Below are positions 5,169 to 20,993 of a stretch of DNA of 36,973 bases, piece after piece. The stretch covers positions 1 to 36,973 of the forward strand of contig CADAAJ010000034.1 in the NCBI GenBank assembly GCA_902785855.1, given 5' to 3'. How positions within the stretch are numbered: position 1 is the stretch's first letter; the number at the start of each line of letters is the position of its first letter. The notes below the pieces were generated by a model that saw nothing but the letters and a program-made list of their open reading frames with translations, searched no databases and was not told where the DNA came from. This DNA is from an uncultured Methanobrevibacter sp. (GTDB taxonomy: Archaea; Methanobacteriota; Methanobacteria; Methanobacteriales; Methanobacteriaceae). Position numbers and translations under genes: made by a program.

Positions 5169-5186
5169 TCTTTCACCATTTAAAAA

Positions 5187-6683
5187 TTAAATATATTCTT
5201 GATTATTTGACCATATTTCATATTTGCTTTCATCAAATTTGGACCATATTTTTTCAAATTCCTCTAAAATTTCATGTCCATTTGTTGCTTCTTGAATTAA
5301 ATGCATATTTTTATCAATACTATTTAAAGAAGTACCTAATGTATATGCTTTAATATTAGAATTTGATTTTCCGGTTTTTGGAAAAATTAAAAAGCGATCA
5401 TGCAATTTTACAGAATAATCTGTAATTCTAAATTCCATATTAAATTTAAAATTATTTTTGTGCAAATTTATATTATTTTTATTAATTTCTTTAAATTCAT
5501 CTAATGATACTTTATTACCATGATTAAAAGTATTTAAAACATCCTTTGATGTTATGGCTTTAATTGTAACATTGGCAAGATTTAGTCGACTAAATAATTT
5601 TAATAATTCTTTATATGATAAATAAGGGTCAATAATGTAAACTTCTTTTTGACCATATTTTTTAATTAATTCTTGTAAGAATCCCATGCTACTTTTTTGT
5701 TTATTAGTAGACAATAAACTGCTCTTATTTTCTTGTGAATTCAATTGATTTTTATGTATGGTCCCGTTAATTATATCTATATAATTTTTTGGTTTTTCTT
5801 TAATTGGATTAGTTTTATCTTTTTCACCAATAGTAACATAAATTCTACGTATAAACCTTGGGCAGCAACTATAAACTAATAAATTAGGATTTTTTCTCCA
5901 AATTAATGAATTGCTTAATTTATCTAATGGTCCAGTATCAATAAATTGTGTTTTATTGCCATCATAATCAACAATATTATTACTTAAAAAATTATGTTCA
6001 ATTATAATAGTATTTGTTATAATGCATTTGGGAATAGTATCTAACTTGTTATTCCATTCAAAATCGATGTAGAAACCATCAAAATTATCATTTGCATGAT
6101 AATTTAAATTTAAAATAGTAATTGGTAATTGAAAAACATAATTGCCAAATCTATCATCATTTGATGAAAAATCCAAAGGTAAAACTTCTAGAATTCTATT
6201 AATTAATTTTTCATATTTGTCAGAATCATTTTTAAAATAATCAAAATTAGATTTATCTTCTTCAAAGAATTCATAAATATAAGAACCTGAAAAAAAGTTA
6301 TTTTTTAAAATATTGTTTAATCTATTTTCATCATCAGGAGAAATATATTGTTTTGAAAGTAATTTCAATGAAGAACCTTTTAAAATTATATAATCTTTTT
6401 CAAATTCATTTTTTTCAAGTTTATTAAAAATATCAATAGCCTGATTTAAAGAAAAATAATGTTTACAAAAACCTAAAGTAAAATTACTATCAATTCTCTT
6501 ACGTTTAGAAAGGTATTCACTATGGAATTTATCAAATTCCTTTTCTTCAAATGTAAAAATTGTATAAATATTCTTATATTTTTCACAATTTTCACGGTTA
6601 TCAATTAAATATATTTGAATCGCTTCACAACTTTTGTAAAATCCCAAAACTCCAGGGATCAATAATTCTTCCATTGGCAACAT
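5187..6683 (-). CDS. PLD-like phosphodiesterase/nuclease domain protein (498 aa), candidate defence effector
   Basis: The C-terminal 160 residues look like a single phospholipase-D-type catalytic unit. There is a strand ending in YIIDPYLS (about 348-355), the core KLHDRFLIF (about 426-434) in place of the usual HxK motif, and YTLGTSLNS (about 447-455). This HDRF plus G(T/N)S(L/F)N pattern is familiar from single-PLD proteins of defence islands, including, from memory, the VPA1262-type family. The N-terminal 330 residues (start MLPMEELLIPGVLGFY) are unrecognised and may be the sensing part. A weak AGGTAG site precedes the ATG at 6683. It heads a two-gene operon with the 488-aa helical protein. 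Assignment to a nuclease role is moderately secure; the exact family is uncertain. Confidence 0.65.
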   Translation of the reverse strand: MLPMEELLIPGVLGFYKSCEAIQIYLIDNRENCEKYKNIYTIFTFEEKEFDKFHSEYLSKRKRIDSNFTLGFCKHYFSLNQAIDIFNKLEKNEFEKDYIILKGSSLKLLSKQYISPDDENRLNNILKNNFFSGSYIYEFFEEDKSNFDYFKNDSDKYEKLINRILEVLPLDFSSNDDRFGNYVFQLPITILNLNYHANDNFDGFYIDFEWNNKLDTIPKCIITNTIIIEHNFLSNNIVDYDGNKTQFIDTGPLDKLSNSLIWRKNPNLLVYSCCPRFIRRIYVTIGEKDKTNPIKEKPKNYIDIINGTIHKNQLNSQENKSSLLSTNKQKSSMGFLQELIKKYGQKEVYIIDPYLSYKELLKLFSRLNLANVTIKAITSKDVLNTFNHGNKVSLDEFKEINKNNINLHKNNFKFNMEFRITDYSVKLHDRFLIFPKTGKSNSNIKAYTLGTSLNSIDKNMHLIQEATNGHEILEEFEKIWSKFDESKYEIWSNNQEYI

Positions 6684-7126: not shown

Positions 7127-7167
7127 AAGATTAACTAATGTTTTTTTCAATGTACATCTCATATACT

Positions 7168-7338
7168 AATTAAATCATTTCCCACATCAACTTCAACTAA
7201 ATTAGAAACTCACATAAATTAAATCATACATTCCATGTTAATATCAATATTTAATTTAGTCTTTCTGTAAGTATTTTGCATTTTAATTTGAAGCATAATA
7301 GAAAAGTTATTTAATGTTTGATAATAAATAATGTATTA
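7168..7338 (-). repeat. Island repeat, copy A
   Basis: This copy is close to copies B and D over about 165 bp. It shares cacataaattaaatcataca, tttaatttagtctttctgta, and the end aatgtttgataataaataatgtatta. It has a one-base insertion near 7203 and scattered substitutions relative to B. On the minus strand it lies just 5' of the decayed gene at 6778-7126, and its other end lies 78 bp past the stop of the ERCC4-type gene. The flanks outside the repeat are unrelated to those of the other copies. Confidence 0.9.
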
Positions 7339-7415
7339 GCACAATTTATTTAGAGTTTTTAAGCTTGTAATAATTGTTTTTAATGATTTTTAGTTATTAT
7401 TAATTTTTAACTATT

Positions 7416-8165
7416 TTATATTAAAGGTTCTCCATTAAGAACACTTTTACATTCTTCAATTTTTTTAACAGTTAGTCTATTAATATTTAATTTATCACAT
7501 AATTCTTGGGAGTCATTTTCTGTGAAAAGTTGAATTGCCTGAGGAATTGTGTTAATTTTTGTCTTTTTGATAATTTCTCGAATTTGCTTATCGGATAATG
7601 TTCTAGTGGCCCATAATAAATTTACAGCATAATTATCATTTTTTTTCATTTTACTACGTGGAGGTTGTGTTAAATGCCTTCCATTCAACCAAAAGAAATG
7701 ACATATTGCTTCAAAAGCCATATTTTCATCTTTTGCTAAGAAAATATTGATTTTTGAATTAAATCTAAGTATTCCTTTCCATTGAGAGTTTTCATTCATA
7801 AAATGAACAGGATTATCACATATAACAATTAATGCTATATCTTTAAAACCGGAATGTGCGTATAAGTTTTCTACTTGTGTTGTTAATTTTCCATCGCGAA
7901 GTGATGTTTTGAAATCTTCATAATTTTTAAATTCAACTACAACTTCTCTAAAAGCATAATCTCCATATTCAAGATTATCAATTTTAAAATATTCGTCTTC
8001 ATTTTTTCTTTTATTTTTAAGAACATCCATAACTTCTAGTTTGCTATTAGATTTTTTTTCTAAGTAGCTATCTAAATATCTTTTAAATCTTTTGGCTCGG
8101 TCTTTTTCTCTACTATCTACAATAACAACTTCTTTATCTTTTATATCTTCATAATCTAAACTCAT
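7416..8165 (-). CDS. ERCC4/XPF-type nuclease, third gene of a Gabija-like operon
   Basis: Residues 13-100 form an ERCC4 nuclease domain: VVIVDSREK (13-21), GDYAF (68-72), then EFKNYED (78-84) in place of the canonical ERKxxxD, then DGKL and Gln97. The acidic residues and the Lys are kept; the central Arg is replaced by Phe79. The C-terminal 70 residues look like helix-hairpin-helix DNA binding (INTIPQAIQLF, LNINRLTVKKI). XPF, MUS81 and Hef relatives cut branched or flap DNA; this one has no helicase domain. The ATG has a good GGAG site and follows gajB by 38 bp, so it is probably the last gene of the gajA-gajB-nuclease operon. Standard Gabija has only two genes, so this may be an accessory nuclease. 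Confidence 0.82.
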   Translation of the reverse strand: MSLDYEDIKDKEVVIVDSREKDRAKRFKRYLDSYLEKKSNSKLEVMDVLKNKRKNEDEYFKIDNLEYGDYAFREVVVEFKNYEDFKTSLRDGKLTTQVENLYAHSGFKDIALIVICDNPVHFMNENSQWKGILRFNSKINIFLAKDENMAFEAICHFFWLNGRHLTQPPRSKMKKNDNYAVNLLWATRTLSDKQIREIIKKTKINTIPQAIQLFTENDSQELCDKLNINRLTVKKIEECKSVLNGEPLI

Positions 8166-8203
8166 GTTTTAGTCTCCTACAAATATAAGAGTATTTTTTT
8201 AAT

Positions 8204-9931
8204 TTATTTGATGTTACTTGACATGTCATTATTTTCATTAACAATATCTATAACATTTTCTTCTCCAACCATATCTTTTATTTTGTTTAAAGATTTTTCG
8301 CTTAACTTTTCCGTGAATAAAATATGTAAATTGCATATTGCTCTTGAAACACAAACATAAAACAAGTTTCTACTTTGTATGAACTTATTATCATTATTAT
8401 CTGTGCCTATGTTTTCTATCATTTCATTAAAATTATATTTGTTCCAACCTTTTCCAAAAACTGCCAATATATTTTCATATTCTTCACCTTTAACATTATG
8501 TTGGGTTGAAAATGGAGTGTGTTCTTCAATATATTCTTTTAATGGAGGTATTTCGTTATATTGCACTTCTTTTAATTTAACTATTTCATCAAATTGACGG
8601 TTATGTTCTTCTTCATTTTTTAAATATTTATTTAGTTTATTTTCCAGTTTTTCAATTTTTGGATTTAATTTTATCTTTTTACAGGATTTTAAGTGTTCTA
8701 TTACCTCACCAATTGTTTTATTTTTGCGCATATTTTTTATTGATTCTATTTCTGTTTTGATTAATTTTTTATCATCAATAGATGAAATTTTTATATTATT
8801 TAATTGAAAAAATTCAGCATATTTATTATTATCATAATATTCAATCATATTTTCTAAATCTATTAAAAAAGAAATATATTCATTTTCTTTTTTAATTACA
8901 TTATCATTAAATCTAAATGATTTCAATATATTTTCATAGTTTTGATAAGATGATAACAATTTATGGGTTAAAATAAGAATTTTACCATCTGATGCATTTT
9001 TACATTCGCTTGAAAATCGTTTTTTAACAATTTTAAAATATTTAATTCGTTCTTCATCTTGAAGTTCACCTTTCCATTGAGATCCACCCTTTCTTTTCCC
9101 GTCCCAGGAATTTGTATGATAGACTTTAATTAGACCTTTTTTTTGCTTGTTAGGGTATTGAATTAATTTTGGACGTAATTTATTTAAAAATTCAACAATA
9201 TTAGTGTATGATCTGAAATTAGCTTCTTTATTAATAATTTTTAACCTTTTATCAGTAATTTTTCCACAAGTGTCATTATCATATATTGCCTGCCAATGAT
9301 CTCCAAATAATCCTATGATGGATGAATTTTTGGTGCTTTCATAAGCTTCAATTAATGAATTTACAAAGTATTTATTTGTGTCTTGATATTCATCAATAAA
9401 TAAAAAAGGGTAATTATTGATTAAAATTGCACAAAATTTAGTATATTTACATAATTTTGAAAATATTAGTGGAATGTCATTATGGGTTAAATGAATTTCT
9501 TTTTCAGTAATTTCTCTTTTATTTCCTGTTTCATACAATATTTTCTGCTTTTTTATTTCTATTTCAGTTTCTTCAATTTTTTTTCTCCACTTTTCTTCAT
9601 TAGAGATAATATTTCTTATTTCTTTTTGATATCCATTCATAAAATTCCAACAAAATCCATGAATAGTATTTGGGTCAATCAAAGGATTTTTTTCAACTCT
9701 ATCCTTAATTTCATCAACAGCAGTATTTGTAAAACTTATGCATGCAATCTTTTGATGATTATTTTTAATATCTTCGCTATATTTTTTAATAATATAATCT
9801 AAAGATTTATGCAGTGAATATGTTTTACCTGCACCAGGTCCCGCTTCAAAAATGAAACTTTCATGATTATCGATTGCTGTATATAATTTTTCATTTGCTA
9901 TTTCAGCCGCTTTTTCTGCTTCGTTGCTCAT
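8204..9931 (-). CDS. gajB: GajB-like UvrD/Rep superfamily 1 helicase (Gabija component)
   Basis: SF1A helicase motifs appear in order: the Walker A in FEAGPGAGKTYSL (Lys36), CISFTNTAVDEI, TIHGFCW, the Walker B FLFIDEYQDTN, GDHWQAIY (motif III), NFRSYTNIVEF (motif IV), then TQHNVKGEEYENI (motif V) and FYVCVSRA (motif VI). At 575 aa it is a compact UvrD-like helicase of the size seen for GajB. The ATG is immediately adjacent to the TAA of the upstream ATPase/TOPRIM gene, with GGTGAT as its ribosome site, so translation is coupled. In Gabija, GajB binds DNA ends and assembles with the GajA nuclease to block phage. The pairing with an OLD-family gene makes the Gabija call strong. A domain search against characterised GajB would confirm it. 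Confidence 0.88.
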   Translation of the reverse strand: MSNEAEKAAEIANEKLYTAIDNHESFIFEAGPGAGKTYSLHKSLDYIIKKYSEDIKNNHQKIACISFTNTAVDEIKDRVEKNPLIDPNTIHGFCWNFMNGYQKEIRNIISNEEKWRKKIEETEIEIKKQKILYETGNKREITEKEIHLTHNDIPLIFSKLCKYTKFCAILINNYPFLFIDEYQDTNKYFVNSLIEAYESTKNSSIIGLFGDHWQAIYDNDTCGKITDKRLKIINKEANFRSYTNIVEFLNKLRPKLIQYPNKQKKGLIKVYHTNSWDGKRKGGSQWKGELQDEERIKYFKIVKKRFSSECKNASDGKILILTHKLLSSYQNYENILKSFRFNDNVIKKENEYISFLIDLENMIEYYDNNKYAEFFQLNNIKISSIDDKKLIKTEIESIKNMRKNKTIGEVIEHLKSCKKIKLNPKIEKLENKLNKYLKNEEEHNRQFDEIVKLKEVQYNEIPPLKEYIEEHTPFSTQHNVKGEEYENILAVFGKGWNKYNFNEMIENIGTDNNDNKFIQSRNLFYVCVSRAICNLHILFTEKLSEKSLNKIKDMVGEENVIDIVNENNDMSSNIK

Positions 9932-11842
9932 TTAATCACCCACTTCTGATAACCATTTTAAACCTTTCTTAATATAATCTGGAATTTTCCAATGAGTATT
10001 ATTTTCAATACCACATTTAATAGCAAAATCTAATTTGCTGTTAATTTTTTTCGCCTTATTAAACACTGATTCATTTGAAAGTGATTTTAAATCAAACATG
10101 TCGTAATTTTCTAGAATAAATGCATCTTCAAAAGATCTTGGCCAAATGCCATCATTATTTTTTATTTGAAATGTAATCATTACTTTTGGATTATCATCTT
10201 TAACACCAATTTTTAAAGTGTCATCAATTTTAAGTTTTCCTTGACTTTGAGGATTAACCCAATTTTTTAATGCATAATTTGATGAAAATAGCTCTAAATC
10301 ACTATCATAAGGGCATTTTTTCCCATTTTTGTCTACGAAATCAATATCTGTTATTACCAAACAATATGTGTTTATAAATTCTAAAAACTTATAGAATTTA
10401 TGAGCATATGCTCCACCTACTTCAATAATGGATATGTATTTATTGGATAATTTGTTTTCATATTCTTTATCAAATTTTTCAATAATGCGAGGTAAAAGAA
10501 TATGTTCGGATTGTCCCTCAATTAAAATAACTTTATCTGCGAAAAATAAATCACATCTTGTTAATGTTAAAAATTTATGAAGAAAATTTGCATTTTCTTG
10601 ATTGGTTTCTTTAAATATTTTCAAATCTTTGATTTCAATGTTGTTGTTTGATTTTCTTGAAAAGTATCTAATGGATTCAAAATTAGCTTGATTTGAAATA
10701 TGTGACGAATGTGTGGTTACAACAAACTGTACAGGCCATTTTTTCCCATATCTTTTTTCAAAATCTTTTTTTAATTTATTAATTTCTTTAATAAATACTT
10801 CTTGCATTTGTGGATGCAAATGGGCTTCTGGTTCTTCTATAAAAATTAAATTTAATCCGGGAAGTTCATTTTTATTAATAAATTCATCATAAAATTGTTG
10901 TAATCTAAAAAGAATGTATATTAGATTTCTTGAACCTAAACCATTATAATCTTCAGGTAATTTTATTCCATTGGATCCTTCATAACATATTTTAGTATGG
11001 TTTTTTATAAGGTTTTGAGTTTCAATCAAAGTTTCTGTCTGAATATTTGGATCATTAAGACCAGGATATCCAAATATTTTTAAATTTGGCAGTAATTGAG
11101 TTTGAATTGTTGAATCTAATTTGTCAATTGCAATTGTTTGAATTTCTTGTATATTTTTCTCAATTTCATCATTTGAACTTAAATCTTTATTATCAACAGT
11201 TTTAAATAAAACTTTACTTAAAATTCTAGCTTCACTATGGGTGTTATCGTCCAGTTCTCTTTGTGCAAAAATAAAATTATTTTGGATAAGATTATTATAA
11301 GTCTCTATCTTAATCTCTTTAGTATTATTTTCATCACTAGGGTCTATTGAAATTACGGAATACTCAAAGAAAGTTGATAGTTCTTTTTTTAAGAATGTTA
11401 TTAATCTATTTTTTTCATTGTTTTCAACAAATTTTTTACCAGAATCATAAAACTTTTCTTTTTCAGACTTTCGAATAGAATAATTTACTAAAAGTTTTAC
11501 ATAATCTATTTCATCATCTAAATCAATTATAAAATCAGATAAAATTGCAAAATCAGAATTATCACTATATTTCAAATAATATGTGATGGATACAGTTGGT
11601 AATTCAAAATCTTTATTATAGGTGTCCTGATTAAAAAAATCAATAAATTTTTTAAATGATTTAATATTAAAGTCTTCAATTTTTAATTTGTTTTTTAAGT
11701 TATTTGTACGGTTAAATATTTCATTTAATGAAGTTTTACCACTATTATTTTTACCTACAATAAGTGTAGACTCTTCATGGAATGTAAACTCTACATCTTC
11801 AAGAAGTCTAAAATTGTGTATTTTCACCTTTTCTAAATACAT
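9932..11842 (-). CDS. gajA: GajA-like OLD-family ATPase/TOPRIM endonuclease (Gabija component)
   Basis: The N-terminal ABC-type ATPase has a Walker A at 30-37 (GKNNSGKT), a signature-like stretch around 300-306 (NGLGSRN), a Walker B at 332-344 (LIFIEEPEAHLHP) and an H-loop VVTTHSSH near 374-381. The TOPRIM nuclease follows, with VILIEGQSEH (Glu442) and the metal-binding pair in VITDIDF (Asp499, Asp501). This is the OLD/GajA architecture: a site-specific nickase whose activity is held back by nucleotides until phage replication depletes them. At 636 aa it is slightly longer than the founding GajA (about 580 aa). The ATG is preceded by GGAGAT. It is the first gene of the operon, and repeat copy B lies about 130 bp upstream. 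Confidence 0.9.
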   Translation of the reverse strand: MYLEKVKIHNFRLLEDVEFTFHEESTLIVGKNNSGKTSLNEIFNRTNNLKNKLKIEDFNIKSFKKFIDFFNQDTYNKDFELPTVSITYYLKYSDNSDFAILSDFIIDLDDEIDYVKLLVNYSIRKSEKEKFYDSGKKFVENNEKNRLITFLKKELSTFFEYSVISIDPSDENNTKEIKIETYNNLIQNNFIFAQRELDDNTHSEARILSKVLFKTVDNKDLSSNDEIEKNIQEIQTIAIDKLDSTIQTQLLPNLKIFGYPGLNDPNIQTETLIETQNLIKNHTKICYEGSNGIKLPEDYNGLGSRNLIYILFRLQQFYDEFINKNELPGLNLIFIEEPEAHLHPQMQEVFIKEINKLKKDFEKRYGKKWPVQFVVTTHSSHISNQANFESIRYFSRKSNNNIEIKDLKIFKETNQENANFLHKFLTLTRCDLFFADKVILIEGQSEHILLPRIIEKFDKEYENKLSNKYISIIEVGGAYAHKFYKFLEFINTYCLVITDIDFVDKNGKKCPYDSDLELFSSNYALKNWVNPQSQGKLKIDDTLKIGVKDDNPKVMITFQIKNNDGIWPRSFEDAFILENYDMFDLKSLSNESVFNKAKKINSKLDFAIKCGIENNTHWKIPDYIKKGLKWLSEVGD

Positions 11843-11974
11843 TCTATCTCCTAATAAATACTATTATATGGCTGTTTGATTTTAGATTTGATAATCTTTA
11901 ATTATTTTATATTTGTCATTGATATATAAATGAATTTTGTAAGAACACTTGAAAAGTAATTTCATAGCATAATC

Positions 11975-12146
11975 TACTTAACTCATTTCCCACTTTAACT
12001 TCAACTAGATTAAAACTCACATAAATTAAATCATACATTCCATGTCAATATCATTATTTAATTTAGTCTTTCTGTAAGTATTTTAGATTTTAATTTGAAG
12101 CATAATAGAAAAGTTATTTAATGTTTGATAATAAATAATGTATTAT
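11975..12146 (-). repeat. Island repeat, copy B (172 bp)
   Basis: This copy is the same length as copy D (20822-20993) and differs from it at only about three positions (11994, 12007 and 12046 region). Both edges are sharp: sequence similarity between B and D starts at tacttaact and stops after atgtattat. On the minus strand it precedes gajA. On the plus strand its last 9 bases contain the ATG of the gene at 12138, so B sits between two divergent genes and may act as their shared promoter region. Confidence 0.93.
12114..12121 (+). promoter_or_regulatory. TATA-like element inside repeat B
   Basis: The sequence ttatttaa lies about 17-24 nt upstream of the ATG at 12138, and no Shine-Dalgarno site is present, which fits a leaderless archaeal transcript. 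The same element is carried by copies A and D, where the following ATG leads only into two- and eleven-codon frames. Confidence 0.35.
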
Positions 12147-13334
12147 AAGAATATTAATGAAGGAATGTTTTGTAGCGAATTAATTCCAATCGATTTGGAT
12201 AATAAGGAAGATTATTATCGTATGGTTTATAGCATTTATTCATCTTTAACTAGTGAAATAGTAATTGATTTTATTAATTCAAATAGAATTAATTTATTTA
12301 TTATGGAATCTGCTCAGGTATTGGCTAATTCAATTAGACTTTTTGAGTTAGGGTATTTTGATGCAGCATATTATTCGATGAGAACTTCAATAGAAGTTTT
12401 CACGGTATTATTTGATGTATATGATTATGATGATGAAAAAATAATGAAAAATATGGGCAAGTTTGTTAAAAATGAATATTTTGTGAGAAGGAAGCAAATT
12501 ATTGATTATTTGTCTAAAAATGGAATTGTGTTTGCAGATATTAAAGAAAAAATGCCTAACTTTTTAAAAGAAATGGAGGATACTTCTCAAAAATTAAATA
12601 ATCGAGTTCATAAATCTAATTTTGATAATTTTTACATAAAACATAAAATTAAATGTCAAAATGAGAATTATAGGGCAAATCAGGCAAATGAATTTATAAG
12701 TCTATTAGAAAAATCGATTAAAATAGTTGCAGTAATGAGATTGATTTTAGATCCAATTCCTCTTTTGATGGATGATGAAGAAATAGCATATAGAATTCCT
12801 AATTTAATGACTTATTCATTTTCTAAAGATCTTTTAGAACTTATTGGTGAGAAAACATTATTAGAATTTAAAAGTACTGAAAAATTCATAGGATTTAAAG
12901 AATGGATAATGGGCTTTGAAAAAAGAAATGAGTATGTTGATGCAGTGGTAATGTATGAATTCATTGATTTGAATAATTTAGATGAAATTTATAAACAAAA
13001 AGAATTATTAAGTAAGTATGATTTAATGAATGTGAATATAGCAGGTTGTAGTAATAAAATTATTGAAATAATTAGTTATAATGGTTTTGATAGATATCGG
13101 ACAAGTTCTAATAATTTTAATGGTGTAATTTGTAATCCTTTAAGATATGATCAATTGAAAAACTTAGTTGAATATTTTAATTTAGAATATGATGAAATTT
13201 TTGTATCAATATTAAATAGGAATCCAAATTTTGATTCACTGCAAACTATTGATTTGATTTATATTTTTCACAATGAAAAATTTACACAAGAGGAGATTGA
13301 TAACTTGGTAAGTGTTGATTTAGTGGTAGATTAA
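12138..13334 (+). CDS. HEPN/DUF5677-like helical protein (398 aa), candidate defence gene
   Basis: A helical segment at about residues 55-90 (SAQVLANSIRLFELGYF, then SMRTSIEVFTVLFDV) resembles the core of DUF5677 and HEPN-like four-helix domains, followed by NNRVHKS near 154-160. I see no clear RxxxxH RNase motif, so the HEPN link is tentative. The C-terminal 170 residues are alpha/beta and unrecognised. The ATG lies inside repeat B, without a ribosome site; a second in-frame ATG at 12165 is preceded too closely by AAGGA to be better. It is divergent from gajA and is followed by a convergent transposase remnant 18 bp away. It could be a stand-alone abortive-infection gene, inferred from the neighbourhood. 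Confidence 0.65.
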   Translation: MYYKNINEGMFCSELIPIDLDNKEDYYRMVYSIYSSLTSEIVIDFINSNRINLFIMESAQVLANSIRLFELGYFDAAYYSMRTSIEVFTVLFDVYDYDDEKIMKNMGKFVKNEYFVRRKQIIDYLSKNGIVFADIKEKMPNFLKEMEDTSQKLNNRVHKSNFDNFYIKHKIKCQNENYRANQANEFISLLEKSIKIVAVMRLILDPIPLLMDDEEIAYRIPNLMTYSFSKDLLELIGEKTLLEFKSTEKFIGFKEWIMGFEKRNEYVDAVVMYEFIDLNNLDEIYKQKELLSKYDLMNVNIAGCSNKIIEIISYNGFDRYRTSSNNFNGVICNPLRYDQLKNLVEYFNLEYDEIFVSILNRNPNFDSLQTIDLIYIFHNEKFTQEEIDNLVSVDLVVD

Positions 13335-13352
13335 TATGATTGTGATATGATT

Positions 13353-13758
13353 TTATGGATTGGTATTGCTAATATATGATTTTATTGCAAAAATTGAAAT
13401 ATTTTTTAAAAATTTAAAGAACTCAGTTTGGGATTTTTTATTACAATTACGACATAAATAACGTTTAAATTTAATAGGAATACTACTTTCTAAACATAAT
13501 GTTTTCCAATTAAAAATTTTTTTAATAATATCATGAGAATTACATTTGCTACAAATGGTTTTGATACTAATAACACCATCTGAATTAACAAAGTAATTTT
13601 CATCGAGGATACTCTCCATTGGAAGGATGATTTGATAAGAATTATCCAATAATTTCACACTTTTCATCTTTTCTGATTGGAACTTCAGGAAAACCAATAA
13701 ATTTATATTCCCCATCTTTCAAAATAAGACATGAAAGACATTTATTTTCACTGTTCAT
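13353..13758 (-). pseudogene. Transposase N-terminal fragment with zinc ribbon, frameshifted
   Basis: The longest open frame (13353-13715, 120 aa) contains a four-cysteine zinc ribbon, CSKC at the front and CRNCNKKSQTEF behind, with NSYQIILPMESIL before it. This layout is common at the N-terminus of archaeal IS transposases. An ATG at 13756-13758 opens another frame (MNSENKCLSCLILKDGEYKF) that reaches about 13650 and would join by one frameshift. After KSQTEFFKF the reading departs and stops, so the catalytic part is missing. It faces away from the other transposase remnant at 13948. Confidence 0.6.
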
Positions 13759-13947
13759 ATATAATAATGTGTTTTCCAACCAACATTATACTTAATTATT
13801 CTTAAAAAATTAATTAAAGAATATATAAAGTAATAACAAGATTATAACTAACATATGGTTGGTAAAATAATGAATGATGATAAAATAATAAGATAAAAAA
13901 CATAAATTCATCAAAAAATAAACACAAAATAATCACTCAAGACCTAA
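13759..13947. other. Intergenic sequence between two transposase remnants
   Basis: No coding sequence is visible. The ends carry partly inverted matches, ttttccaaccaacat near 13770 and atatggttggtaaaa near 13853-13867, which could be old IS or promoter sequence. Otherwise it is simple AT-rich DNA. Confidence 0.3.
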
Positions 13948-14548
13948 CATGTTGACAGCCCCAAAAAATTCCACAATCCTATCCTAAAAGAAAAATATAG
14001 TGATGAATTATACTTAAATTTAAGAATAATCACCATAGAATTAGAAAATGGAGAAATTGAAACACTATTAACAAATTTAACTCCAAAAATGATGACCACA
14101 GAAGACATCTGCCAAATTTACGATTATCGATGGGGAATTGAAACCAACTACAATACTTTTAAAAATCGCTTAAACATCGAGAATTACAATGGAACTAAAA
14201 GAATAACAATCGAACAAGATATTTACTCCCAATTTATATTTTATAATATAATCTGCTACTATAATTCTTATTTAAACATGTTAGTAAATCTTCAATTGAG
14301 TAAAAAAGGCAAATGCGATGAAGATGATGAATATCAAATAGATCAAGCCAATTTAATTAGAAATCTTAATGATGGATTAATGAAAGTAATCGTAAATCCC
14401 ATTAAAGATAACATTTGTGAATTCACATCGGATTTAATATGGAAATCGTCGGATGAACTCAATAAAATTAAAAAAAAATATAAGATATGAGCATCAAAAG
14501 TCTAAACCATTCATTAGATATCGAATGAAATATCAGGACATGTCCTGA
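13948..14548 (+). pseudogene. IS4-type DDE transposase, C-terminal remnant
   Basis: The intact stretch at 14089-14490 contains the IS4-family YREK signature, Y-x2-R-x3-E-x6-K, in IYDYRWGIETNYNTFK. Coding-like sequence continues upstream in the same frame to a stop at 13945-13947 (FHNPILKEKYSDELYL, then LENGEIETLL), so the listed ATG is not the true start. Downstream, a frameshift near 14485 leads into EHQKSKPFIRYRMKYQDMS and a stop at 14546-14548, which looks like the real C-terminus. The first two catalytic aspartates are absent, so the element cannot transpose by itself. Confidence 0.75.
14533..14548. repeat. 16-bp perfect palindrome
   Basis: tcaggacatgtcctga is identical to its own reverse complement. 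It covers the last codons and stop of the decayed IS4-type transposase, so it may be part of the element's end or a chance survivor. The rest of 14549-14780 is noncoding and otherwise featureless. Confidence 0.6.
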
Positions 14549-14780
14549 GGAGGATAACGCCCATGAAACAAATAAGAAGGAAAAAATCATGAAAATTTCC
14601 TAAAGTTTACGACATTGAAAAATCAAAACCTGATTTAAAAATAATATAACATAGTTATTAAATATGAAATTTAATAAAAATTTTCACCAGGAATATCTTA
14701 AGTTTCTAGGAATGCTTATTTTCAAATGTTTTTAATATAATACATTAAATTTGATATATGCTTTGTGATTTTCTCCCTTA

Positions 14781-14790
14781 AATATATATT
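14781..14790 (+). promoter_or_regulatory. TATA box for the 14813-17348 gene pair
   Basis: The sequence aatatatatt lies about 23-32 nt upstream of the ATG at 14813. No ribosome site is visible, which is the usual form of a leaderless archaeal promoter. Confidence 0.5.
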
Positions 14791-14812
14791 GATATAAATT
14801 AAACCTATACAT

Positions 14813-16276
14813 ATGAGAAACCATCCTTATGATAAACTCAAAGACCATGAACATAAAAATGGAATTTTTAAGTCTCCAATTAATCAGATTGATAATATTA
14901 AATTGTATCATTGGAGAAATGATTGTCTTCCAGATTTTATTTGGATTGCATTAATATTAGATTATTATAATCGTGAAGGTGCTTTTTTAAAGTTATCATC
15001 AATTTTTAAAGAGATTGAAGATTCTTCTTTTCAATTTGATTCGTTACAATTATCGTATATTTTTTCTTTAGATAAACCTCATCAAATTGAATTTTATAAT
15101 ATTCTATTAAAATATATTGATGTTGAAACATTGTCTCCATTAACAATTATTTTTAATAAAAACCAGTTATTTAAAGAATATTTTGTTATAGAAAATTATA
15201 GGGTTGAAGATAAACTTATTATTTTAGAAAATATTGTTGAATATTATGGAACTAATAAATCTGATGAAGCAACAGATGTTCAATATGTAATTCTAACTTT
15301 TTATTTTCTCATACGAAATAAAATTCACTTAACGGAAAAAACTAGTGAAATAGCCGATTATTTATATAAATATCCAAAAACGCCTCACGTAAATGATGAA
15401 ATGAAAAAATATCGACCCACTGTTAGGAGCATTTTTGGTGCCATCCAAGATGGTATATATGAACATAATCAAGAATTTATAAGATTATTTTGGAGAGAAT
15501 TATTAAAAATAGGGGGTTGTGAGTTGATATATGGAGAATATATGAATCAATTTACATTAGATGAAAATTTTATTGAAGATATTAAAATTGAATTTCAAAA
15601 ATTGATTATTGAAAACACAGAAACTGAACTTGAAGATTCACAATTTAATGTTATTATAGGTTCTTCAGTTTATGCATTAAAAGTGTTAAACGAACTTGTT
15701 GAATGTAATCTTAGAAATAAAGTTATGGGAAGATTGTGTTTGAGAATAATTATTGAAGTTTACATCACATTAAAATTTATTCATAAAAAAGAACAAGAAG
15801 AACCAAACATATGGGAAGAGTATCAAGAATATGGTATTGGAAAATATAAGATGATTCTAATCAAAGCTCGTGAAGTAAAAGAATTTGAAAACTCACATTT
15901 GAATACTGAATTGATTGACGCATTAGTTAACGAACAATTTGATGAAATGTTCTTAAATATTGAAGTAAAGTATTTTAAAAAAGATATGAGAAAAAAGGCT
16001 GGTGATGTTGATGAAAAAGAATTATATGATTTGTATTATGATTATGAGTCAAATTATGCTCACGGTTTATGGGGGGCAGTTCGTGAAAGTGCAATGTTAA
16101 CATGTGTTAATCCACTTCATTTAGGACATAATGTTCCAGATGTTCAATTAAATCATGGTTTAGCAGATGTTTTGCCTGATGCGATAATGGTTTTTAAAAA
16201 ATTATTATCATTTATTGATGATAATTATCCATTGTCTTCTGAATTCATGTCAAAATATGAGGTAAAAAATGAATAA
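14813..16276 (+). CDS. DUF5677-like helical protein (487 aa), first gene of a two-gene unit
   Basis: The C-terminal half resembles DUF5677-type proteins. A helix with KVLNELVECNL is followed by RLCLRIIIEVYITLKFI (a conserved R...E pattern near 310-330), and a later helix has LYDLYYDYESNYAHGLW, with a conserved Tyr/His pair near 415-422. The family occurs in defence islands, but its activity is not established to my knowledge. The N-terminal 260 residues are helical and unrecognised. The ATG follows a TATA box without a ribosome site. Its end overlaps the next gene by 8 bp, so the two are translated together. Confidence 0.65.
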   Translation: MRNHPYDKLKDHEHKNGIFKSPINQIDNIKLYHWRNDCLPDFIWIALILDYYNREGAFLKLSSIFKEIEDSSFQFDSLQLSYIFSLDKPHQIEFYNILLKYIDVETLSPLTIIFNKNQLFKEYFVIENYRVEDKLIILENIVEYYGTNKSDEATDVQYVILTFYFLIRNKIHLTEKTSEIADYLYKYPKTPHVNDEMKKYRPTVRSIFGAIQDGIYEHNQEFIRLFWRELLKIGGCELIYGEYMNQFTLDENFIEDIKIEFQKLIIENTETELEDSQFNVIIGSSVYALKVLNELVECNLRNKVMGRLCLRIIIEVYITLKFIHKKEQEEPNIWEEYQEYGIGKYKMILIKAREVKEFENSHLNTELIDALVNEQFDEMFLNIEVKYFKKDMRKKAGDVDEKELYDLYYDYESNYAHGLWGAVRESAMLTCVNPLHLGHNVPDVQLNHGLADVLPDAIMVFKKLLSFIDDNYPLSSEFMSKYEVKNE

Positions 16277-17348
16277 TGCTATAATTTATTTACATAATAT
16301 TCAAAATGAATATTATGACATATTAAAATCTAAAGAACCAATTGTATTTTCAGATGATTTAAATTTAGTCGAAATTACTATGATTATTGAAGAAATAGAC
16401 ATTTTTTGGAGAAAAAATAGGGATAAAATCTTATTTGATTTGGATTATTTTGATGATAAAGAAACATTGTTTTTAGCAGGATCCATGTATTTGGACATTG
16501 ATGGTAATTGTCATTATTACTTTAAAACATTTGGGGATGAAAATATTATCAATGATTCGATATTAAAATTTCAAAACATTGCTAATAATGATGTAAATGC
16601 TGATTTTGATATAATTTCAATTTTTAAACGATCATTTAAAAATACTTTGAGTTTATTAGAAAATTTTAGTTCTTATTTTTATATTCTACCTGTAGATTAT
16701 ATTATTTCAGTGTATAATGATGAATTAATTGAAATGAAAAATAAAATATTTTATCAACTTCTTTCATCATTACTTGATTTTGAGGATATTTTATCCAATG
16801 AGTTATTTTTTGAGACCTTTGACTCAATTGAGAAAATTGAAAATATTTTAGAAAATAAAAAAATTGATTTATTCACATTTAATGAAGGAGACAATAATTT
16901 ATCTCTTAAAGAAAGATTAGACAAATATGAAACTCAAATTCCATTTAAGCTTGATGATTATCTGATGAAATTTTTATGTTTGTTGTATAATTATTGGAAT
17001 CAAATTATAAGTATATTTTTGGTCTTCATGGAACTTGGTTTCATACCGTATATTAGTTTTAAAAATACTTTTTTTAATTTTCATACCTTATTTTTATCTT
17101 TATATAATGGAGAAGATGCAGATGAAATTTTAAATAAAATAATTGTATTTTATACATTTAATATTTGTACAGATGAAAGAATTTTTAATAAAATTAATTT
17201 TGAAGATTATGTTAATTTAGTTGTGAATAATGATTTCCAAGAAAAATTAATGAATAATGATGAAGATAACATATCTAAGGGATTGAATGTATTGATAAAC
17301 CATATTTCTAAAGAGTTCAATATATTGATGGAGAAAAATGAAAATTAA
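16269..17348 (+). CDS. Hypothetical acidic helical protein (359 aa), second gene of the pair
   Basis: I do not recognise this protein. It is soluble, acidic and helical, with many Asp-Phe/Ile-Asp runs. One strongly hydrophobic stretch near residues 233-255 (LCLLYNYWNQIISIFLVFMEL) could be a buried or membrane-associated helix. It starts inside the end of the upstream gene (8-bp overlap), and the pair share a single leaderless-type promoter. Overlap of this kind usually indicates a fixed stoichiometry, so it is probably an obligate partner of the DUF5677-like protein. Function is unknown. Confidence 0.62.
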   Translation: MNNAIIYLHNIQNEYYDILKSKEPIVFSDDLNLVEITMIIEEIDIFWRKNRDKILFDLDYFDDKETLFLAGSMYLDIDGNCHYYFKTFGDENIINDSILKFQNIANNDVNADFDIISIFKRSFKNTLSLLENFSSYFYILPVDYIISVYNDELIEMKNKIFYQLLSSLLDFEDILSNELFFETFDSIEKIENILENKKIDLFTFNEGDNNLSLKERLDKYETQIPFKLDDYLMKFLCLLYNYWNQIISIFLVFMELGFIPYISFKNTFFNFHTLFLSLYNGEDADEILNKIIVFYTFNICTDERIFNKINFEDYVNLVVNNDFQEKLMNNDEDNISKGLNVLINHISKEFNILMEKNEN

Positions 17349-17880
17349 ATTTATAACTCGCATTTAAAATTATTCTATGCTCTATTATATTTCATAAATA
17401 TTTGTATTAACGTATATGAAACAAGGTTAATCTCCTACTTTGACATGATAAATTACTGTAGCATGTGACAACTCAGATGCAATACATTGAACTCGGCGGA
17501 AGTATAAGTAAAAACTTTGATTATTAATTATAGATGAACTGAACAGAAGAGAATTCACCCTAGGTGTGGGTAACTCAAGAGAAAATAAAGTTGGCCGTAC
17601 AAGAAGGATTTCAACGGATATTCAAAGATGGGCATTTTCCTTGTTGGAAAGAATTTGACAGAATTCATGGAAAATGGTGATGAATTTCTGGAAAAAATAA
17701 TAGCATATCCGAATGAAGTCATTCATTATGACAGTATAATGGCTTTTACTGGAGGTTATGAAAAGATTGTTTCAGAAAAGCAATCTCAAAGTTGATGTGG
17801 ACATGTGGTATTCCACATGAAAATAACTTGTAGTGGGTAGTTTATTTTTTTATAAAAATTTTAAAAGAATAAAATTATGT
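17349..17880 (+). pseudogene. Intergenic region with decayed coding fragments (about 17530-17795)
   Basis: Two short plus-strand fragments read like relics of a gene with a less AT-rich composition than its neighbours. One reads EFTLGVGNSRENKVGRTRR and runs on to WAFSLLERI (ending near 17655). The other is in a different frame from 17628 (MGIFLVGKNLTEFMENGDEF, then KIIAYPNEVIHYDSIMAF) and ends at 17793-17795. They overlap in different frames, so at most one is right at any point. The parent gene is not recognised. The remainder of the region holds nothing I can name. Confidence 0.35.
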
Positions 17881-18876
17881 TTAACCATTTTTTATTTTAG
17901 AGTAAATCTCATCACTAATTTCTTTTACAGTAAATTCTTCAGTGGACATATATCTAATTTGTTTCAATGGTTTAAAAAATTTTTCCAAGTCTTCATCGTT
18001 TAATCCATGATTAATGGGTAATAGTCTACCATCATCCATAAGAGATATTAAAGCATCGAACTCCATTTTTGGCCATGATCTTTTAATAAACTCTTTGGAT
18101 AATACAACAATGCCATAATCAGATTTAGTTAAACCATTATTAATTTTCTCTCTTAAATTATCTCCAATTCTTAATATGGCTATATCGTACCATATTTCTA
18201 AATCTGTTTCTGATAATGTTTTATAAAGTTCATTAACCCATACTTTATCCTTTGAAGAATGTGATATAAATACGTCATAATGTTCTTTTTCTTCTTGGGA
18301 AGTAATACTGTGAGTTTCTAATTTTGTATTAATTTCCTCGAGTTTAACTAATATTCCTTCTTCATTAAATTCAAATCCATAAAAACTTAATACTCTGTTA
18401 ACTTTTTTGAGATTGTCTTCATATTTTTCAGGAGTTAATAAATACTCTTGGGGGTCACATAATACTTCTAATACTTTTAAAATTTTATAGAACCCTTCAA
18501 TACTTTCTTCTTGCATATTTTCGAAGGTTTCACATACAAATTTCCATTTTGTATTTCCATCATGGACGATTTCAGGAAATCCTGCTTTTTTAAATAATCG
18601 TGTTATTTCAGACCCAGTATATGTTTCGCCGATGATTTTTGATAATGCTTCAAGTGCATTTAATTGAAATTTCATTTTTTTAATCCTCTCTTCGGATATC
18701 TTATATTTTTTGCAAAATTCTTTAAATTTAATTAGAATCTCTTTTCTAGTTTTTACATGGGATTTGACAAAATTTGGAAGATTATTGTTCCAAGTTTCAT
18801 ATTCATTATTAAGATTAAATATGATACTTTTTAGTATATCTACAGTATTTGCAAATCTTTTAGATATAGGTTTCAA
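17881..18876 (-). CDS. TIR-domain protein with AbiJ-like N-terminal region
   Basis: Residues 199-330 are a TIR domain: YDVFISHSSKDK (200-211), then EIWYDIAILRIGDNL, VVLSKEF, and SWPKMEFDAL with Glu272 at the usual NADase catalytic position. Bacterial TIR effectors degrade NAD+ or make nucleotide signals on phage infection. The segment at about 75-145 (LSKIIGETYTGSEITRLF, then KWKFVCETF and CDPQEYL) resembles N-terminal domains of AbiJ-type abortive-infection proteins. The frame opens at TTG (18874-18876), overlapping the TGA of the upstream gene as TTGA. An ATG at 18675 (residue 68) has a much better GAGAGG site and could be the real start, which would give a protein of 264 aa. Confidence 0.85.
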   Translation of the reverse strand: MKPISKRFANTVDILKSIIFNLNNEYETWNNNLPNFVKSHVKTRKEILIKFKEFCKKYKISEERIKKMKFQLNALEALSKIIGETYTGSEITRLFKKAGFPEIVHDGNTKWKFVCETFENMQEESIEGFYKILKVLEVLCDPQEYLLTPEKYEDNLKKVNRVLSFYGFEFNEEGILVKLEEINTKLETHSITSQEEKEHYDVFISHSSKDKVWVNELYKTLSETDLEIWYDIAILRIGDNLREKINNGLTKSDYGIVVLSKEFIKRSWPKMEFDALISLMDDGRLLPINHGLNDEDLEKFFKPLKQIRYMSTEEFTVKEISDEIYSKIKNG

Positions 18877-19253
18877 ATCAAATTTAAGGATTTAAAATAA
18901 ATATTATTATTTTCTACAAAATAAGTATTATATTTATATTTTCTTTTATTTGAACGATAACTAAGTAGTTCAACATTTCCTTCAAAAGAAACGTTAAATG
19001 TATAAATTGTATTTTCAACTTCGGTTCCATCTTGATAATATCCTTTGGATTTGTCTTCACAATAATCTATTTTGTTAAAGTCAATTGTTATTGGGTTGAC
19101 CGTATATTGTTTTATTAGGGAATTGATACATTTCTCTTGGTTTTCAATTAGGTAGTTGCATTCTGTTTGATTAATCTTTTTGATGATATCTTTTTTGTTT
19201 GATTCGATATATTCTTCAATTCTTTTATTGAAAATTTCTTCTATTTTAATCAC
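18873..19253 (-). CDS. Small protein upstream of and overlapping the TIR gene (126 aa)
   Basis: The N-terminus (KRIEEYIESNKKDIIKKI, then TVNPITIDFNKIDY) has a helix-then-strand layout that I associate with the beginnings of larger defence-island proteins, so this may be a shortened relative. The rest is beta-rich (NTIYTFNVSFEG, YKYNTYFVEN). The start is GTG at 19251-19253; no in-frame ATG is nearby. It begins about 18 bp from diverged repeat copy C and ends in a TTGA overlap with the TIR gene, so it is probably that effector's regulator, sensor or antitoxin. This is inferred from position. Confidence 0.55.
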   Translation of the reverse strand: MIKIEEIFNKRIEEYIESNKKDIIKKINQTECNYLIENQEKCINSLIKQYTVNPITIDFNKIDYCEDKSKGYYQDGTEVENTIYTFNVSFEGNVELLSYRSNKRKYKYNTYFVENNNIYFKSLNLI

Positions 19254-19271
19254 CCATTCATGTATATTATT

Positions 19272-19412
19272 TTACTTATTCCCACTTTAAATTCAACCAG
19301 ATTAAAACTCACATAAATTAAATCACACATTTCTTGTTAACATCATTATTTAATTTAGTCTTTTCGCGTATTTTATATTTTAATTTGAAGTTTTTAGTTA
19401 TTCAATGTTTTT
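19272..19412 (-). repeat. Island repeat, copy C (diverged, about 140 bp)
   Basis: It matches B and D clearly over cccacttta...attcaaccagattaaaactc, then acataaattaaatca and catcattatttaatttagtc. It then degrades: ttttcgcgtattttatatttt replaces the homologous stretch, and the last 30 bp are recognisable only in part. The orientation is the same as in the other copies, and it lies immediately 5' of the 126-aa gene and TIR unit. Confidence 0.82.
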
Positions 19413-19423
19413 ATTTTAAATCT

Positions 19424-19699
19424 TTAACTTTTAAATATAATTTTTTTAAGTTCATCCCCTTTCAATCGATTAAAGGTTAATGATATTCTTATTGTTGTTT
19501 CAAAAATTTCATAAATGTCTTCTAGTTTTAAATTCATGGTTTCTTCTTTTAAATGCAAAACATTGGTTAGTGTAAGATAGTCATAGTCTTTGTTAGATTT
19601 TGCATATTTGATGATATTTCTTATGAATGGTATGGATGCGATAAGTTCTGATTTTTTATAATATTTTAATTTATAAAGTGAATCTATTTTTAAATTCAT
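19424..19699 (-). CDS. Small hypothetical protein (91 aa) in the DUF3800 module
   Basis: A short helical protein starts MNLKIDSLYKLKYYKK and ends LKGDELKKIIFKS. It has no recognised motif. The ATG has a GGTGT ribosome site. It lies 89 bp after the DUF3800 gene on the same strand, and its stop is about 12 bp from repeat C, so it falls inside the module bounded by repeats C and D. It could be a partner of the DUF3800 protein or an independent small gene. Confidence 0.5.
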   Translation of the reverse strand: MNLKIDSLYKLKYYKKSELIASIPFIRNIIKYAKSNKDYDYLTLTNVLHLKEETMNLKLEDIYEIFETTIRISLTFNRLKGDELKKIIFKS

Positions 19700-19788
19700 T
19701 TAAACACCAATAATATTCATTGGGAAAAGTAAGTATTATTTTTTGTGCATAGAATAATCTTACTGATAAATTTTTAAGTATAACATAT

Positions 19789-20769
19789 TTAGAACCATTT
19801 GTTAAGTGAAGTTTGCTCAACTAATGCCTGGGGGTCACTGATTTGTATTTCATGATGAAATTGTTGTGTGTCATGTAATAATCCTTCAAAATCTTTTTGT
19901 GATTTAATTGTGGTTTTTGGAAATATTGAAACCTGTTGGCTTCTAAAATAATTATAAGAGCTATTGTGATTATATGGATGATTCCATATTCTTTTAAAAA
20001 GTGGATAAAAATCATTTGCAACTTTGATTTTATTTTTATTTTTTGATAATTGAAATAATATTTGACTGGATAAACCTAAAATTAAATCAATTAATTGAAT
20101 TAACTGGGCATTTTCTTTGGAACTACTGTTGTTATATTCGCGATGGTTGGAATTAATAAATGTTATTTCATCAGTTGTGATAGTAACTCTTTTTTGATTA
20201 TTTAAATAATCAATTACATGCCATTTAAAATATTCATGTTTCTCTTTTTCATCAGCATTATCATGATAAATATTTTTAATAATGATATTTTCGTCTTTGA
20301 AATAAAATGATTTTGCAGAAAGCAAAACAGTACGATAAAACCTATTGTAAATGTTGGTAGTGTCTTTATCCACACCAAATTTATCAAAATCTAAATTATC
20401 TAAATCCACATATAAAATATTAAAATATAATAATTTGTTTTTATCTTTTTGATGTTTGTTGTGATTTGTAATAAATTTGGCCCATCTAGAGTAAATTTCT
20501 AATTTGGATTGGGACATATTTTTTTCAATTTTAGTAGAATGGATTTCAAAATTGTTAAGATTATGGTAGTGTTCTTTGCATTCATTTTTACAATCTTCGT
20601 AATTCCAAGACCATTTTGTGGGATGTTTATGCAAACATCTTAAATTACATAACTTTTTCGTTAAGTTAGTTTTATAAGATGTTGGAATAAAAAGACATGC
20701 TATTCCCAGATAGTTTCTACCATTTTCATCCTTAAAATGTGCTTCATCGGAATAAATTTCTAACTCCAT
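19789..20769 (-). CDS. DUF3800 family protein (predicted RNase H-fold nuclease)
   Basis: The family pattern is visible: an N-terminal strand with IYSDEAHF (Asp8, Glu9), a central YHDNADEKEKHEYF, then EITFINSNHREY, and the terminal helix with QLIQLIDLILG. DUF3800 proteins have an RNase H-like fold with spaced acidic residues and occur widely in mobile and defence regions; a nuclease activity is predicted rather than shown for most. At 326 aa it is in the upper part of the family's range. The ATG lacks a ribosome site. Repeat D begins 52 bp upstream. Confidence 0.8.
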   Translation of the reverse strand: MELEIYSDEAHFKDENGRNYLGIACLFIPTSYKTNLTKKLCNLRCLHKHPTKWSWNYEDCKNECKEHYHNLNNFEIHSTKIEKNMSQSKLEIYSRWAKFITNHNKHQKDKNKLLYFNILYVDLDNLDFDKFGVDKDTTNIYNRFYRTVLLSAKSFYFKDENIIIKNIYHDNADEKEKHEYFKWHVIDYLNNQKRVTITTDEITFINSNHREYNNSSSKENAQLIQLIDLILGLSSQILFQLSKNKNKIKVANDFYPLFKRIWNHPYNHNSSYNYFRSQQVSIFPKTTIKSQKDFEGLLHDTQQFHHEIQISDPQALVEQTSLNKWF

Positions 20770-20821
20770 GAATAATATTTTGTTTTTAGTTGTTATAAAT
20801 TGTTGTCTATATTTTGTTATA

Positions 20822-20993
20822 TACTTAACTCATTTCCCACTTCAACTTCAACCAGATTAAAACTCACATAAATTAAATCATACATTCCATGTTAATATCA
20901 TTATTTAATTTAGTCTTTCTGTAAGTATTTTAGATTTTAATTTGAAGCATAATAGAAAAGTTATTTAATGTTTGATAATAAATAATGTATTAT
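20822..20993 (-). repeat. Island repeat, copy D (172 bp)
   Basis: This copy has the same length as copy B and about three substitutions against it. On the minus strand it precedes the DUF3800 gene. On the plus strand the repeat-borne ATG (20985-20987) opens a frame of only eleven codons (MYYFKFSCFLI), so no gene corresponding to the one at 12138 remains here. Copy D marks the right edge of the defence island. Confidence 0.93.

Follow-up and report, generated by a model that had tools for sequence, protein, structure and literature searches.

A short repeat in four copies within a defence island of an uncultured Methanobrevibacter, tentatively read as a non-autonomous DNA element

The island and its repeat family

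The window, that is the whole stretch of 36,973 nucleotides that was analysed, carries a predicted antiviral gene cluster, and its comparison with itself gave a single long repeat family, consisting of four copies of about 175 bp (A to D) which all lie within 13.8 kb of this cluster. The genes and copies are as follows.

3702-6683: two-gene unit, a VPA1262-family protein with an uncharacterised partner; candidate defence pair
7160-7338, minus strand: repeat copy A (blastn 94.4% to D; profile 139 bits; low end at 7160 or 7162)
7416-11842, minus strand: Gabija module with an ERCC4 gene, bracketed by copies A and B
7416-8165, minus strand: ERCC4-domain nuclease gene, directly 3' of gajB (Pfam ERCC4, 2.4e-7)
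8204-9931, minus strand: gajB (PADLOC GajB, 2e-191)
9932-11842, minus strand: gajA (PADLOC GajA, 8e-205)
11968-12146, minus strand: repeat copy B (97.7% to D; low end at 11968 or 11972)
12138-13334, plus strand: uncharacterised gene from the list of open reading frames, diverging from copy B
14813-17348, plus strand: DitA/DitB defence pair, between B and C (PADLOC DitA, 1.6e-154; DitB, 2.7e-66)
17881-19253, minus strand: TIR-domain gene in two frames, 3' of copy C
19263-about 19431, minus strand: repeat copy C (BLAST 19263-19390; profile 19265-19431, 103 bits)
19424-19699, minus strand: partial candidate defence gene of PDC-S46 type, lying between C and D (PADLOC 3e-17, model positions 527-591 of 719)
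19789-20769, minus strand: gene labelled DUF3800 by the first-pass annotation, 3' of copy D, its length matching that of its relatives
20818-20993, minus strand: repeat copy D (blastn and profile; low end at 20818 or 20819)

To the left of copy A lie, in this order, an HNH gene, a pseudomurein-peptidase-like gene and the two-gene VPA1262-family unit, in which the end of the VPA1262-family protein bears what we take to be a phospholipase-D-like HDRF motif. The ERCC4-domain gene is a possible Gabija accessory. No relatives of GajA were found at an E-value of 1e-30 in the 148 other genomes of the order, which suggests from sequence comparison that gajA may have been acquired recently. The gene at 12138-13334 has relatives in 5 of the 148 other genomes at 1e-5, and one relative genome (G108) carries two tandem copies of its homologue. 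Between this gene and DitA/DitB lie remnants of an IS4-type transposase. The two frames of the TIR gene align, with 42% and 60% identity across the break, with one single frame of 464 amino acids in a relative (G017), and the gene is thus frameshifted relative to that one; between DitB and the TIR gene (17345-17885) there is also a decayed plus-strand reading frame, its family unassigned. The gene labelled DUF3800 gave no Pfam match at 0.01 and a PADLOC match to PDC-M04A at 0.0011. Beyond copy D follow a LicD gene and then genes read as glycan-related. Two LicD-type paralogues (21508-22509 and 27806-28840) stand in opposite orientation with 36% amino acid identity, and this pair also forms an inverted repeat of 72% at the DNA level. 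No tRNA gene was found in the window by ARAGORN and no integrase among the 19 proteins scanned between 553 and 22509. Rfam gave no match in the window at the gathering level and none around copy D at an E-value of 1.

Self-comparison and pairwise BLAST agree with the first-pass annotation in that the four copies share one orientation. The flanks of the copies are unrelated and the ends of A, B and D are common to within a few bases, as pairwise BLAST confirmed. E-values between pairs of copies range from 1e-29 (A-C) to 2e-83 (B-D) in local BLAST; B and D had been described as differing at about three positions, and they are indeed nearly identical, the count being 4 of 175. Copy C is the most diverged of the four (87% identity to D over 131 bp); it covers the whole unit with both ends worn, and its alignment contains a 6-nt deletion, a 2-nt deletion and an 8-nt insertion. 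The G+C content of the copies is 18-21% against 25% for the window. The repeat is non-coding, as the overlap of the matched stretches with open reading frames of at least 80 amino acids is at most 5%; the profile end of copy C reaches 8 nt into the frame at 19424-19699. A minus-strand frame, MYDLIYVSFNLVEVEVGNELS, looks protein-like, and a reading of the repeat as a remnant of a coding gene was rejected, given a frameshift in copy A, no PADLOC or Pfam match and differences among the copies that by eye are mostly non-synonymous.

Placement of the copies and search for further ones

It had been proposed that each copy lies 20-140 bp 5' of a minus-strand gene or operon. Measured from the low ends of the copies (11972, 19265, 20819 and 7165) to the listed minus-strand starts, the distances are 129 nt for B (to gajA at 11842), 49 nt for D (to 20769) and 11 nt for C (to 19253). 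For copy A, a decayed stretch read by eye is the sole candidate close by, and the next listed open reading frame starts 481 nt away, at 6683. Copies A, C and D each have minus-strand genes on both sides, so that a 5' position is uninformative for them, since any insertion would qualify. Copy B, the sole copy between divergent genes, stands 5' of both, and the start codon listed for the plus-strand gene 12138 falls within the high end of this copy. Upstream of a relative of gene 12138 (in L051) the sequence is different and includes a stretch resembling a ribosome-binding site, and from this difference we infer that the join at B may have replaced the upstream DNA of gene 12138.

The further claim that the repeat divides the island into modules holds for part of it. 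Copies A and B enclose the Gabija/ERCC4 module, and C and D enclose the PDC-S46-type fragment together with the gene labelled DUF3800, whereas the interval from B to C comprises the plus-strand gene, the transposase remnants, DitA/DitB and the TIR gene with no internal repeat.

A motif search over 87 upstream regions recovered the ribosome-binding motif and not a TATA motif, so that all statements on promoters rest on reading by eye. Among four tRNA upstream stretches of the same genome read in this way, one contains TTTATATAT, another a run of TATATATA, and one consists simply of the tRNA in front. Before gajA, the most TATA-like stretch, TTTATATATC, lies by eye in the 129-nt unique spacer and thus outside the repeat; before the DUF3800 gene, TATATAAC straddles the edge of the unit. 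That the unit acts as a promoter is therefore unproven, and for gajA such a role is perhaps unneeded. The idea of a portable promoter, put forward in the first-pass annotation, is therefore weakened by the position of the stretch before gajA and by the triviality of the 5' placement for three of the four copies.

The repeat is apparently private to its lineage, as far as the sequence collections searched allow this to be judged. In its own draft genome (2.16 Mb, 95% complete) no further convincing copy was seen among the 40 of 97 candidates that were scored, the next-best match being 51 bp long with an E-value of 8e-6. Of 149 further genomes of the order, 15 gave BLAST matches at 1e-4; these matches cover at most 80 of 175 bases (five candidates scored per genome) and occupy dissimilar places; a scan of the genus gave weak matches in 12 genomes. 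As a control, the query was reversed without being complemented and gave matches in 9 of 150 genomes. The weak matches were taken as background and not as copies, since the best E-value was 1.3e-6 as compared to 4e-6 for the reversed query and the lengths were alike, although the numbers of genomes, 15 and 9, are not identical. The matches in L031, L033, L034 and L036 represent one locus type, which we take to be the leader of ribosomal protein L3, judging by the letters that follow three of them.

With a sequence profile, the four copies were found at E-values below 1e-28 among 67 genomes of the genus, and the best match in the other 66 was at 6e-4; at an E-value of 1, some match occurred in 59 of the 67. 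This best outside match (G022, 5.8e-4) was discarded, as it lies inside a gene, presumably one for a HAD-type phosphatase. A structure profile run on the same 67 genomes at 0.05 found nothing beyond the four copies. Fifteen loci with homologues of three neighbour genes gave no match to the repeat at an E-value of 10, and 15 larger loci around such homologues gave no match to the sequence profile at 1. In these larger loci the structure profile had five matches, at E 1.7-3.6, as compared to two, at E 2.0-2.7, in 35 control loci, which is the level of chance. The check for enrichment next to defence genes that the first-pass annotation had proposed thus yielded no copies in relatives that could be scored.

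Other collections gave a similar picture. One exact match to a 21-mer common to all copies was found in 84,980 GTDB species genomes; it lies inside a reading frame of a Bacteroidetes MAG, presumably an arginase-type gene, and was taken as chance. IMG/VR contained no match to either of two 21-mers, and a degenerate 18-mer retrieved 21 contigs, one of which gave a profile match of 8.2 bits (E 0.48). Searched with protein patterns, the same collection gave 21 stretches for GajA, none of them confirmed, and none for the DUF3800 protein. Plasmids gave no match to the repeat, and phages one weak match (E 9e-5; 74.5% across 54% of the query).

The predicted hairpin and the distribution of substitutions

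The minus strand of the unit is predicted to fold into one long imperfect hairpin, at the following positions.

7171-7309, minus strand: predicted hairpin in copy A
11979-12116, minus strand: predicted hairpin in copy B
19271-19400, minus strand: predicted hairpin in copy C
20826-20963, minus strand: predicted hairpin in copy D

Against dinucleotide shuffling, the folding energies of single copies are ordinary, with z at -0.43 in D, -1.08 in A and +1.91 in C. For the four copies together, RNAalifold gave on the minus strand a z of -1.26 (p 0.07) for the whole unit, -1.48 (p 0.075) for the hairpin and -2.01 (p 0.035) for the inner hairpin, as compared to 0.51, 0.0 and -0.14, respectively, on the plus strand. 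Without copy C the minus-strand values were -1.22 for the whole unit and -2.17 for the inner hairpin.

Substitutions were counted as parsimony events on the tree ((B,D),(A,C)), with the fold of D as the pairing mask. Pooled in this way, events are rarer at paired columns of the minus strand, with 13 in 96 paired against 33 in 79 unpaired columns (binomial p 0.0002; p 0.0025 with masks from random folds). The difference persists within the hairpin span (13 events in 96 columns as compared to 17 in 42; p 0.0025, or 0.03 with random-fold masks) and within the inner hairpin (5 in 70 as compared to 12 in 34; p 0.0015, or 0.0025 with random-fold masks), and a plus-strand pairing mask gave no depletion in stems (p 0.61). 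Tested copy by copy against D, Fisher p-values for the inner hairpin were 0.003 (A), 0.10 (B) and 0.34 (C), and for the whole hairpin 0.027, 0.027 and 0.55, so that the signal comes mainly from A, B and the pooling and not from C, the most diverged copy, which by itself shows no sparing of stems (C against D under random masks, p 0.23).

All five substitutions in the inner stem are in C; four of them keep the pair by a one-sided change and one breaks it. Copy C also carries a 2-nt deletion within a stem and copy A an insertion of 1 nt, and in the outer helices most pairs are broken in copy C. No pair is altered on both sides, although five further pair types arise by one-sided change. Paired cells amount to 95.7% as compared to 95.9% with shuffled 3' letters, and no measure of covariation exceeded the shuffles. 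As the inner region was picked after the broken outer helices of C had been seen, and as only four related sequences are available, the evidence for stem sparing is graded as weak to moderate. These predicted structures give a faint hint that the unit might make a folded RNA. For the regulatory RNA suggested in the first-pass annotation this means that the pooled sparing of minus-strand stems speaks weakly in its favour, and that copy C taken alone, the covariation counts and alifold z values of only -1.3 to -2.0 speak against it.

Possible origin and role of the repeat

We tentatively regard the unit as a short non-autonomous, foldback-like DNA element that was copied within this one defence island, a reading to which we assign a probability of about 0.4. 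An element of about 175 bp with fixed ends would have undergone three or more copying events, each leaving it between genes and facing the same way; it would presumably have been copied as a DNA unit, with the hairpin as its functional feature. Copying of the unit as DNA explains most economically why three copies in unrelated contexts have the same ends, and the pooled sparing of stems fits a foldback element as well as it fits an RNA. At present the copies would most likely serve only as homology where some modules meet and as a portion of the intergenic DNA 5' of gajA, of the TIR gene and of the DUF3800 gene. That all copies have one orientation and lie in one island is unusual for a freely transposing unit and counts against this reading. 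The features of known mobile elements were likewise searched for. Terminal inverted repeats in copy D amount to 13 matches as compared to 12.95 in shuffles (p 0.59). With the boundaries left free by 8 nt, no clear target-site duplications were found, the matches being of 4 nt at A, B and C and, at D, an AT match of 6 nt, and no conserved tetranucleotide was seen by eye in the flanks. Five IS4-type loci of relatives, related to the transposase remnant of the island and one of them cut by a contig end, share with the repeat only short matches at the level of chance (best E 0.009). Copies scattered over the genome are absent, the four being confined to one stretch of 14 kb. Scattered copies, or IS- or MITE-type ends with duplications, had been named beforehand as outcomes that would contradict the first-pass interpretation, and neither was seen.

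Two rivals of the foldback reading are live. It is rather unlikely, though worth serious consideration, that the unit is a 5' leader or a small RNA, in which the first 30 bases of the minus strand would be a promoter and the next 138 the hairpin, regulating or accompanying the defence gene that follows. The restriction of stem sparing and of the low inner-hairpin alifold value to the minus strand argues for such a role, as do the four of five inner-stem substitutions, all in C, that retain the pair, and the best-kept copies B and D precede genes of normal length, while the worn copies A and C precede a decayed stretch and a frameshifted gene, in a sample of four. However, the lack of any two-sided change, a fraction of paired cells not above that of shuffles, ordinary folding energies and a whole-unit alifold p of 0.07 point the other way, together with a copy C that spares no stems and has lost most outer pairs. 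Nor did Rfam recognise the window or copy D, the start codons lie at distances anywhere from 11 to 129 nt, gajA has its best TATA-like stretch outside the unit, and the repeat does not recur before the same genes in the 15 homologue loci or the 15 larger loci. The other rival, which we consider unlikely, takes the copies as borders of recombination, such that modules came or left by homologous or site-specific recombination with a direct repeat on each side. Module swapping at a shared sequence fits the anatomy, given the common orientation, the bracketing of Gabija/ERCC4 by A and B and of the DUF3800 gene by C and D, and the extension of B into the start of gene 12138, where the L051 relative has a ribosome-site-like sequence of its own; yet several units without a repeat between them fill the interval from B to C, no integrase was found in the 12 scanned of the 13 frames of at least 80 amino acids between A and D, and no pair of attC boxes was seen by eye.

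Two further explanations appear less probable still. The repeats could be plain debris, fragments of one local series of duplications with neither function nor mobility, which would be in keeping with the other wreckage of the island (the transposase remnant, the PDC-S46 fragment and the frameshifted TIR gene) but would not readily explain the same two ends in three unrelated contexts and the sparing of stems; we consider this improbable. It is very doubtful that the unit combines a portable promoter with a hairpin RNA and travels with, or is captured by, unrelated defence modules, to which it would offer common control and homology for exchange.

Several known types of repeat resemble the unit in part. 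MITEs and the palindromic elements of the REPIN type or derived from IS200/IS605 are short, non-coding, dispersed and hairpin-forming and have no gene of their own. The unit is likewise short, non-coding, dispersed, predicted to form a hairpin and without a gene of its own; in contrast to such elements it has neither terminal inverted repeats nor clear duplications, no parent was found among the IS4-type loci compared, and it is present in four copies only, in one island and in one orientation. Since the tests for the ends and duplications that define such elements gave nothing, we provisionally group it with the small non-autonomous repeats for its behaviour and not by membership. Integron attC sites are direct repeats of the same orientation which fold on one strand and bracket cassettes, whereas the unit, judged by eye, has no GTTRRRY/RYYYAAC pair and the scanned proteins of the window include no integron integrase. 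Attachment sites of integrated elements are direct repeats around acquired modules; unlike these, the unit is 175 bp long and present in four copies, in a window that has no tRNA gene and no integrase among its scanned proteins.

In our view, little is understood of the build-up and exchange of defence genes within the islands of archaea. Should the unit be a common leader or border, the exchange and co-regulation of modules could be approached through it directly; the present evidence amounts to a short repeat, apparently private, with a single suggestive signal of conservation, and its interest lies mainly in being a well-defined target. The repressor RptR is reported to bind three 9-bp direct repeats inside one promoter of a defence island (PMC12255303). 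These are, as here, direct repeats in a defence island, tied in that case to regulation, although they differ in being 9 bp long and within a single promoter, while the 175-bp units stand before different genes. Titles and abstract openings in the literature gave no description of such a repeat, which does not prove its absence from print.

For comparison, 50 loci were examined for local repeats, namely 15 island loci of relatives and 35 controls, 15 of them from other genomes and 20 from the same genome. At the thresholds used, none of the 50 has three or more dispersed non-coding copies of any repeat. Local repeats of at least 80 bp at an identity of at least 80% occurred in 5 of the 15 island loci, in 5 of the 15 controls from other genomes and in 2 of the 20 from the same genome. 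L098 and L112 contain largely non-coding pairs of copies, and L117 contains a tandem array. The island of L098 (G041:C44) contains a broken homologue of the DUF3800 gene, a direct duplication of 2.6 kb (82%) and a pair of 469-bp repeats (90%).
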